Source of the DNA: a virus
Virus record (IMG/VR): IMGVR_UViG_3300043431_000374
Location: 1 to 20,093 of that record
Reading direction: 5' to 3' (one strand)
DNA: 20,093 nt
This document shows, in pieces, positions 2,962 through 4,253 of the stretch (positions are counted from its first letter, which is position 1; each line of letters opens with the position of its first letter). The position numbers were made by a program, and so were the translations under genes. The notes under the pieces were generated by a model. That model saw nothing but the letters and a program-made list of their open reading frames with translations, was not told the DNA's origin and ran no database searches.

Positions 2962-3089
2962 AAGTTTCCTTTTTGATTACTTAGGCTAAAGGTCTATCGG
3001 AATCCCGATAGACCCTGTTGAATGGAGATACACCAAGCGACAAAAGCCACTTGGTTTTGGTTTTCAACCCGTTACATTTTGTAACGAGT
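2962..3089 (-). promoter_or_regulatory. Structured leader between KilA-N gene and initiator gene
   Basis: This 128-base spacer holds three hairpins. One is 2991-3000 with 3005-3014 (perfect 10-base arms, 4-base loop). The second is 3033-3041 with 3046-3054 (9 pairs on the minus-strand RNA if two G-U pairs are allowed, but mismatched on the plus-strand RNA). The third is 3070-3076 with 3080-3086 (7-base arms), four bases after the KilA-N stop codon. None is followed by a long T-run on the minus strand. They may be RNA processing or partial termination sites setting expression of the initiator. The role is unknown. Confidence 0.5.
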
Positions 3090-3857
3090 TCAGTTAATGA
3101 GTTTGATTTTGTTTGCGACTTCACAGCCTAACAGGGAATTATTAAGAAACTCTTCATAGACACCACGCATCTTTGAGCTTGCATCACGCCCTCTCTTTCC
3201 AGAATCTGAGCTTGATTTGGTTTTGTGGAGTGTGTCGGTGGCAACTGATTCACCGAATGAGATACAGTGAAGGGATGGGGCTGTGAGATGGTCACGCAGG
3301 TTATCTTTCTCAGATAAACCTAGAACGCCTGATACAGCCTTTCTATCCATGTCAAATGTGCCACGATAGATTTGATTCGTCATGCTGGCAATCTGAACGC
3401 CCGTCTTCTTGTATTCAACAGCCGTTTGAGACAAGGTTTTTCTGACTTGCTTGCCGTCTGAGCGTACTTTGAGCCATTCAGGGGATTTTGTTGTGACGGT
3501 GGGCAAAACTTCTTTAAGCTCATTCTGCACCAATTTGATGACAGCATACTTGAAGTCCACACTAATCCACTGGGCGAGGTCAATTGCAATATCAGGATGA
3601 ATCCAAGTTTGAGAATTTCGACCTCTTCTTGCTTCCATTAATTTAGATGCGACTTTTCTCGCTTCTACAGAAACCTTCTCAAAAAGCTCTCTTGTTTCTT
3701 TTCTTCTGAAAAACTCATTCCATCTTCTGCCACCAGCTCTGCACAAGGCCGTTGCATTGACATAGCCATCACTGATTCGGGATTCAATGAGAACACCGTT
3801 GATAGTTACAGATTTGGTGGGGATTGGTTTTTCTTGACAAATGAGTGTTTTACTCAT
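3090..3857 (-). CDS. KilA-N domain DNA-binding protein (antirepressor-like)
   Basis: This 255-residue protein has a KilA-N domain at about 15-110, with the typical DGYVNATALCRAGGR start, a basic RRWNEFFRRKETRE stretch and the WIHPDIAIDLAQWISVDF end. The C-terminal 145 residues, rich in Ser, Lys and Val, are not recognised. KilA-N proteins bind DNA, and many act as phage antirepressors or early regulators. ATG at 3857 is preferred because AGGAG lies 6 bases upstream; the ATG at 3862 meets a stop at once. The gene is read from a promoter at 3925-3953, and its leader carries a terminator-shaped hairpin, so expression is probably controlled after initiation. Identity of the domain is firm; the regulatory role is inferred. 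Confidence 0.85.
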   Translation of the reverse strand: MSKTLICQEKPIPTKSVTINGVLIESRISDGYVNATALCRAGGRRWNEFFRRKETRELFEKVSVEARKVASKLMEARRGRNSQTWIHPDIAIDLAQWISVDFKYAVIKLVQNELKEVLPTVTTKSPEWLKVRSDGKQVRKTLSQTAVEYKKTGVQIASMTNQIYRGTFDMDRKAVSGVLGLSEKDNLRDHLTAPSLHCISFGESVATDTLHKTKSSSDSGKRGRDASSKMRGVYEEFLNNSLLGCEVANKIKLIN

Positions 3858-3881
3858 ATCATGCTCCTATTGTTGATTAAA

Positions 3882-3922
3882 AAAAGCCCCTAGGAATTTG
3901 CAGTTCCGACGATGGGGCTTTT
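3882..3922 (-). terminator. Rho-independent terminator / leader hairpin before KilA-N gene
   Basis: On the minus strand the arms AAAAGCCCC and GGGGCTTTT (3914-3922 with 3882-3890) enclose an inner GGAA/TTCC stem, and the hairpin ends in seven T's. It lies 20 bases downstream of the stop of the 103-residue gene. It also lies at the predicted start of the transcript from the promoter at 3925-3953, so RNA from that promoter would either stop as a roughly 40-base RNA or read through into the KilA-N gene. The UUCCUA in its 3' half can pair with the UAGGAG ribosome site of the KilA-N gene. Confidence 0.75.
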
Positions 3923-3924
3923 GC

Positions 3925-3953
3925 ATTGTAGGGTTGGAAGATTAACAAGTCAA
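3925..3953 (-). promoter_or_regulatory. Sigma70-type promoter, leftward, for KilA-N gene
   Basis: On the minus strand TTGACT (3948-3953) and TACAAT (3925-3930) are separated by exactly 17 bases, each matching consensus at 5 of 6 positions. It overlaps the end of the upstream 103-residue gene. The start point would be near 3918, at the base of the hairpin described at 3882-3922. Confidence 0.65.
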
Positions 3954-4253
3954 GCTGTTTCCAAAATGGAAACAACTGAGCAAGAGAAACCCCATAAGAA
4001 TGCCATGAAAAGGTTGAGATTTGGTTAATGACTCTAATTTATCTTTGCACCACAGGATGGTCTCCAGTCTCATCTCATCAATCTCCTCTCTCGTTCTGCC
4101 TTGGAAATTAAATTCTTTCCTTAGTTCCTCTGAGAGGTTGATGTAATAATTCACAAGATCATCATGATTTCCCTCTAGGTTAGTGAGGTGTCTGCCAATG
4201 GTCTCAGCAAGAGCCATCTTGTAAATGAGGGTGTCTGTAAGGTGTTTAGTCAT
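3942..4253 (-). CDS. Hypothetical protein, 103 residues, hydrophobic C-terminus
   Basis: The product is not recognised. Its first 80 residues are helical and mixed-charge, with an Arg/Glu-rich middle. The last 20 residues (ILMGFLLLSCFHFGN region) are hydrophobic and could be a short membrane segment or tail anchor. It starts with ATG at 4253, sharing ATGA with the stop of the upstream HNH-like gene, so the two are probably translated together. A promoter for the next gene overlaps its 3' end. Confidence 0.6.
   Translation of the reverse strand: MTKHLTDTLIYKMALAETIGRHLTNLEGNHDDLVNYYINLSEELRKEFNFQGRTREEIDEMRLETILWCKDKLESLTKSQPFHGILMGFLLLSCFHFGNSLTC

Follow-up and report, generated by a model that had tools for sequence, protein, structure and literature searches.

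A predicted promoter-embedded 5′ hairpin leader of a podovirus KilA-N gene with counterparts in distant phages

The window, a virus record of 20,093 bases analysed over its whole length, comes from an epsilon15-like podovirus, as judged by its portal protein, which is 41% identical to that of Manatee Spring podovirus MW202478. Its leftward genes include those for a Holliday-junction resolvase-like protein, an HNH endonuclease, a KilA-N protein, a replication initiator, a DnaB-like helicase and Dam, with the KilA-N gene placed among the replication genes. The KilA-N gene (3090..3857, minus strand; 255 amino acids) has an ATG start codon at 3857-3855 and a ribosome-binding site, TAGGAG, at 3864..3869, both read directly on the minus strand. 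Several palindromes, including a GGTCTATCGGGATTCCGATAGACC-type one and CGTTACATTTTGTAACG, occupy the interval between this gene and the replication initiator (2962-3089) and are possible operators or origin-related elements.

The protein combines a KilA-N domain (residues 22-112, E 7e-21) with a C-terminal half (window 3090-3551, minus strand) that has weak DinD/DdrC similarity; the DinD match spans residues 103-217 at E 1.5e-4, far below the curated cut-off. The corresponding protein of MW202478 has DinD and DdrC matches at 0.021 and 0.014, and both proteins match the PADLOC candidate defence families PDC-S13/S22. The initial annotation had drawn a parallel with antirepressor genes, a premise that the domains of the protein do not bear out: no antirepressor domain or family was found among the profile matches of the window protein, which by its sequence looks more like the product of an accessory or defence gene. 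A match to phrog_6287 (BstA; E 2.7e-8) is confined to residues 12-100, in the KilA-N part. In BTP1, bstA lies just downstream of cI (PMC8585504), and KilA-N genes are likewise found directly downstream of a cI repressor gene in Escherichia and Proteus phages (L088, L091). A single-sequence structure prediction of the window protein was too poor for use (pLDDT 40).

Upstream of the gene, a promoter-like site, TTGACT-17-TACAAT (3925..3953, minus strand; TTGACT 3953-3948, TACAAT 3930-3925), overlaps the end of the upstream open reading frame (ORF) with its −35 element. Distance to the −10 element predicts transcription to start at the G at 3918 on the minus strand, at the foot of the hairpin AAAAGCCCC-atcgtc-GGAA-ctgcaaa-TTCC-ta-GGGGCTTTT (3882..3922, minus strand; counterparts in L002 and L003). 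Starting 20 nt past the stop codon of the upstream ORF, the hairpin has outer arms AAAAGCCCC (3922-3914) and GGGGCTTTT (3890-3882), an inner stem of GGAA (3907-3904) and TTCC (3896-3893), and seven T's after the stem that form a terminator-like U-tract (3879..3885, minus strand). RNA from the embedded promoter would measure 40 nt from +1 through the last T, with 3918-3886 as its hairpin segment. It would hold only GCCCC/GGGGC (5 pairs) and the inner stem, because the AAAA arm precedes +1. In the predicted fold of the read-through RNA, the ribosome-binding site is mostly unpaired (mean unpaired probability 0.84). The initial annotation had described a near-consensus leftward promoter starting RNA near 3918 at the hairpin foot, with KilA-N readable from its own promoter only through the hairpin. 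As sequence anatomy this was read correctly, and the layout is kept in MW202478 and the podovirus MW202738.

Two further elements flank these parts. A near-perfect inverted repeat, AGCTGTTTCCA/TGGAAACAACT, with a 3-nt gap (3953..3977), abuts the −35 element and is a possible operator; by eye, none is present in MW202478 or MW202738. The top promoter-like match of the window is TTGACA-17-TATCAT (11/12; 3834-3862, plus strand), which points rightward across the KilA-N start and faces the hairpin. It was considered as a source of antisense RNA and left out of the parts, since its counterparts in the relatives score no higher than 9/12.

Taken singly, these parts could be due to chance. Promoter-like sites occur in the window at chance density (37 found against 37.3 expected), and the hairpin, with a minimum free energy of −14.2 kcal/mol and a z-score of −2.05, was equalled or bettered by 10 of 200 shuffled sequences. 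Neither promoter nor hairpin is thus clearly beyond chance in the window alone, and the case rests on conservation. MW202478 and MW202738, whose KilA-N proteins are 35% and 28% identical to that of the window, were the sole phage records with a coverage of 80% or more of the window protein, and both carry promoter, hairpin and KilA-N in the same order and register directly upstream of the gene. In MW202478 a 12/12 promoter, TTGACA-16-TATAAT, is followed by AGAAAAACCCCGctacGGAAgtggtTTCCtgCGGGGcTTTT; in MW202738 a 9/12 promoter, TTGACT-17-TAAAAG, is followed by AAAAACACCCCattataGGAtgtagagTCCtaGGGGTGTTTTT. The −35 element overlaps or lies near the upstream stop codon in all three podoviruses, +1 coincides with the CCCC of the stem, and the hairpin is predicted to start at about +1/+2, where +1 is placed from the −10 position. 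From +1 to the end of the counted T-run, the RNAs would be 37, 35 and 37 nt long in the window, MW202478 and MW202738, respectively.

The genes around this unit differ: in MW202738 KilA-N belongs to the non-structural operon, and in MW202478 it sits amid structural genes. At the same gene junction as in MW202478, its relative MW202473 lacks both an annotated KilA-N gene and a hairpin of this kind, so the gene seems to move as a unit with its promoter and hairpin. When 172 genes from four genomes were compared, a T-tailed hairpin within 50 nt upstream was found for 3 of 3 KilA-N genes and 4 of 169 others (Fisher 4e-5). Promoters scoring 10/12 or better stand 2-7 nt before 0.36% of intergenic positions; the stem-foot promoter scores at the three loci have intergenic frequencies of 0.0036, 0.0009 and 0.026, which combine to P 1.2e-5. 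These podovirus statistics are post hoc, framed once the pattern was known, and concern three loci. Viral contigs searched with individual window proteins, or with the C-terminal domain, yielded no close relatives, and genome searches around a gammaproteobacterium and a Thiobacillus gave only distant KilA-N matches. We consider the leader real and conserved at the sequence level, with the promoter-hairpin-KilA-N order recurring in two distant podoviruses.

As in intrinsic terminators, a G+C stem (five GC pairs) in the window is followed directly by T7. A d'Aubenton-Carafa-type score gave a borderline sense-strand d of −1.6 for the window, an especially weak −31.9 for MW202478 with its tail CTTTTAAAA, and −3 or −35 for MW202738. 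The opposite strand scored better in the two relatives (+12.6 and +9.4), and we regard the terminator-like U-tract of the podovirus leaders as weak to moderate. The exact hairpin motif was rejected as a marker of KilA-N genes: it matched 28 loci with no KilA-N recognised among the downstream ORF starts listed, so the motif itself is unspecific, and most of these matches resemble plain terminators. A DNA-operator reading of the hairpin was likewise set aside, being disfavoured by its asymmetric inner stem and by G-U pairs in the cyanophage hairpins described below.

A wider set of KilA-N genes was drawn from viral contigs, bacterial genomes and named phages, with +1 positions placed throughout from −10-like boxes. 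The majority of the genes examined lack such a hairpin; a T-tailed hairpin lies within 60 nt upstream of 12 of 68 non-redundant KilA-N genes and 11 of 293 control ORFs (p 2e-4). In picocyanobacterial phages, a structured leader lies about 70 nt before the KilA-N start (L027, L031, L036, L041, L043, L047-L049, L054, L056, L058, L059, L066, L069, L072, L087 and L155). A TANNNT box is followed after about 7 nt by a hairpin of 7-8 bp with a GNRA or GCAG-like loop and, after about 10 nt, in all leaders except one, by a CCCGC...GCGGG-type hairpin before the start codon. In the 17 distinct sequences, which were picked for showing the hairpin and are mutually related, 95.6% of cells in helix 1 are paired, with compensatory changes at 6 of 8 pairs; in slid-partner controls for the whole structure, pairing falls to 35-49%. 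G-U pairs are many in the helix, commonest at one position, and argue for an RNA over a DNA palindrome. With its covarying stem and GNRA-type loops, the picocyanophage leader is best described as a structured RNA. An Rfam scan at gathering score of the one such leader scanned, that of Synechococcus phage S-SRP02 (L087), gave no match.

A covariance model of this leader, R1, found out-of-sample matches in L012/L013, L023, L024, L035, L040, L068 and, weakly, L163. In all of these loci except L163, the element precedes an ORF of 62-63 aa that is itself followed directly by KilA-N; in L163 the element stands directly before KilA-N, and L056 has an extra copy after KilA-N. The short ORF between leader and KilA-N (for example MKTLAMMPASPGGSPFASDVERALWELGYPNDFDTEAEA...) is conserved in L012, L023, L024, L035, L040 and L068 and possibly encodes a partner protein. 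R1 did not match the leaders of the window, L002 or L003, which share the layout only. Six weak matches in 292 genomes of the cyanobacterial phylum, none beside a KilA-N relative, were dismissed as chance.

In a second cyanophage set, TACCAT or TACAAT and an A-run are combined with GGNCGG-type hairpins, and the spacing is the same; most members of the TACCAT-GGNCGG group have a divergent upstream neighbour. When the count took in every stem that had 7 bp or more and began 4-8 nt past TANNNT, regardless of a U-tract, 20 of 101 KilA-N leaders and 3 of 434 controls had one, or 7 of 63 and 1 of 279 after stricter redundancy removal (p from 4e-5 to 7e-13). The window is absent from this count because its stem is interrupted. 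The cyanophage leaders lack a U-tract and are unrelated in sequence to the podovirus form, so that the feature common to both is the hairpin at the transcript start, not a terminator. Their TTGAC motif lies 19 or 12-13 nt from the box, a non-standard spacing that makes these promoters less certain than those of the podoviruses.

Our preferred reading, which we hold tentatively, is that the element is the 5′-hairpin leader of a self-contained KilA-N cassette and holds expression down, partly by premature termination. A sigma-70-type promoter of the cassette would start RNA at the hairpin foot and yield a KilA-N mRNA with a 5′-terminal stem-loop. Some polymerases would halt within the U-tract, roughly at +37 to +40, leaving KilA-N only on read-through RNAs, and transcripts arriving from upstream early genes would also cross the hairpin. 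The parts, their register, their recurrence in two podoviruses and the independent, covarying cyanophage hairpin are visible in the sequences; from these we infer a presumed mechanism in which the promoter is used, RNA starts at the predicted site, termination is partial and the net effect is negative. Since five GC pairs are followed by U7 in the window, some termination is expected, and the weak sense-strand scores favour a leaky brake over an on/off switch. Together with the cyanophage leaders that have no U-tract, the same weak scores suggest that termination may not be the point. Against an attenuation leader, there are only three close examples and the majority of examined KilA-N genes have no hairpin; low expression, if that were the aim, could be had more simply from a weak promoter than from a perfect one.

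The hairpin might instead act as a 5′-terminal stem-loop of the ompA/papA kind that shields the mRNA 5′ end from decay or binds a regulator, perhaps KilA-N itself, with the U-tract of minor importance. We rate this as somewhat unlikely and give it substantial weight beside the leaky brake. Stem-loops of this type (cited in PMC3997798) stand at the extreme 5′ end of the mRNA; RNase E is resisted by base-paired 5′ ends (PMC3997798), 5′ stem-loops stabilise mRNAs (PMC7509114), and such a role fits both the predicted start of the hairpin at about +1/+2 in all three podoviruses and the matching distance from the −10-like box in the cyanophage leaders. The podoviruses also have a U-tract and a stem that extends upstream of +1, however: the 4-7 T's after all three hairpins are needless for a stabiliser, and the extension reaches into an A-tract missing from own-promoter RNA. 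The A-tract/T-tract symmetry is that of a bidirectional terminator and would suit an insulator. Upstream and antisense transcription would then be kept from entering the cassette, whereas RNAs begun at the embedded promoter, having no A-tract arm, would mostly get past. The good opposite-strand d in two relatives, the greater stability of the longer read-through stem (−13.9, −16.2 and −21.5 against −10.5, −15.9 and −13.9) and the position of KilA-N inside another operon in each podovirus point this way. Yet the GC stem and U-tract are intact in own-promoter RNA, and the divergent upstream gene in most TACCAT-GGNCGG cyanophages leaves no upstream transcription to insulate from; we regard an insulator as improbable.

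Chance, in the form of an ordinary terminator of the preceding gene beside a fortuitous promoter-like match, appears quite unlikely to us. The chance density of such matches in the window, the start of the hairpin only 20 nt after the upstream stop codon and the likeness of most exact-motif matches elsewhere to plain terminators speak in its favour; against it stands a 12/12 promoter and the same register recurring before two distant homologues in other operons. We think it very unlikely that the locus yields a c4-, sar- or IsrK-like regulatory RNA of some 40 nt that acts in trans or at the KilA-N ribosome-binding site. The initial annotation had proposed an RNA of this length as the default product; the sense-strand terminator scores are borderline or poor, and a U-tract is missing from the cyanophage leaders that share the 5′ hairpin. 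The anatomy does resemble that of IsrK of prophage Gifsy-1, in which a phage promoter gives a short terminated RNA and a longer read-through mRNA (PMC4825925); for IsrK, the mRNA gives rise to an antirepressor and the short RNA works in trans, whereas the KilA-N leader gives no sign of either. The proposed pairing of UUCCUA with UAGGAG of the ribosome-binding site could form 6 pairs, including one G-U, at a cost of 3.8 kcal/mol relative to the best fold of the window; it is compensated to UUCCUG/CAGGAG in MW202478 (penalty 2.9 kcal/mol), which favours a small-RNA role, and is essentially absent from MW202738, where only a three-pair remnant is left. Disfavoured by 3-8 kcal/mol and not conserved in MW202738, this pairing is doubtful, and the suggested kinship with C4 or sar is unsupported: no Rfam family of any kind, these included, matched the window at gathering score, and none, including the C4 covariance model, matched 3700-4100 up to E=10. 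Candidate trans targets of the 40-nt RNA on the leftward strand of the window were no better than shuffled controls.

Promoters followed by terminators have precedents in lambda Q (PMC7171158), AlpA (PMC7969949) and IsrK (PMC4825925). At lambda-type late promoters with Q and at AlpA/alpB of Pseudomonas aeruginosa (PMC7969949), a promoter is followed, upstream of the first gene, by an intrinsic terminator that must be read through; judged from its sequence, the KilA-N cassette likewise has a promoter and then a terminator-like element before its first gene. For Q and AlpA, experiments support an antiterminator that binds DNA at a site lying between the −35 and −10 elements, whereas the KilA-N leader has no known antiterminator and its terminator-like hairpin starts at +1 and is weak. 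By eye, no aligned shared element was seen in the −35/−10 spacers of the three podovirus sequences. In BstA/aba (PMC8585504), a prophage protein with a KilA-N-like domain similarly has a short cis element at the gene start, but aba is DNA-based, spans 29 bp upstream plus the initial 34 bp of the gene and contains direct repeats of CCCGCC, whereas the KilA-N leader is an RNA-like hairpin 5′ of the gene. The P1/P7 C4 antisense RNA and the P22 sar RNA are alike only in the idea of small-RNA control of a phage regulator, with a covariance-model match absent and target pairing unsupported here.

Among phage regulators or accessory proteins of unknown role, KilA-N proteins rank with the most common, and a conserved promoter-embedded leader hairpin offers a concrete, testable handle on the timing of their expression. 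Its recurrence before KilA-N genes of quite different viruses suggests a shared, so far undescribed tuning of the gene. The stronger proposal, that KilA-N operons of unrelated phages share a principle in which a hairpin at +1/+2 serves autoregulation by KilA-N or a partner, we consider doubtful. If it held, promoter-hairpin spacing, rather than sequence, would set the hairpin position, KilA-N or its partner would act on the nascent 5′ hairpin or on polymerase, and the podovirus U-tract and picocyanophage GNRA forms would both belong, as variants, to a single undescribed class of leaders.

Other KilA-N genes have upstream elements of different kinds. In Klebsiella/Providencia phages (L094, L095, L096), long, structured-looking leaders of the GAACCTT...AAGGTTC type, unmatched by Rfam at gathering score, lie about 110 nt before KilA-N. 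In a Moraxella phage (L093), repeated TGACAT operator-like sites and a AAAAAACCTTG...CAAGGTTTTT hairpin precede KilA-N upstream of 1489. Escherichia phage vB_EcoS-673R7 has a match to the sok antitoxin RNA upstream of its KilA-N gene (L086 940-1110, minus strand).
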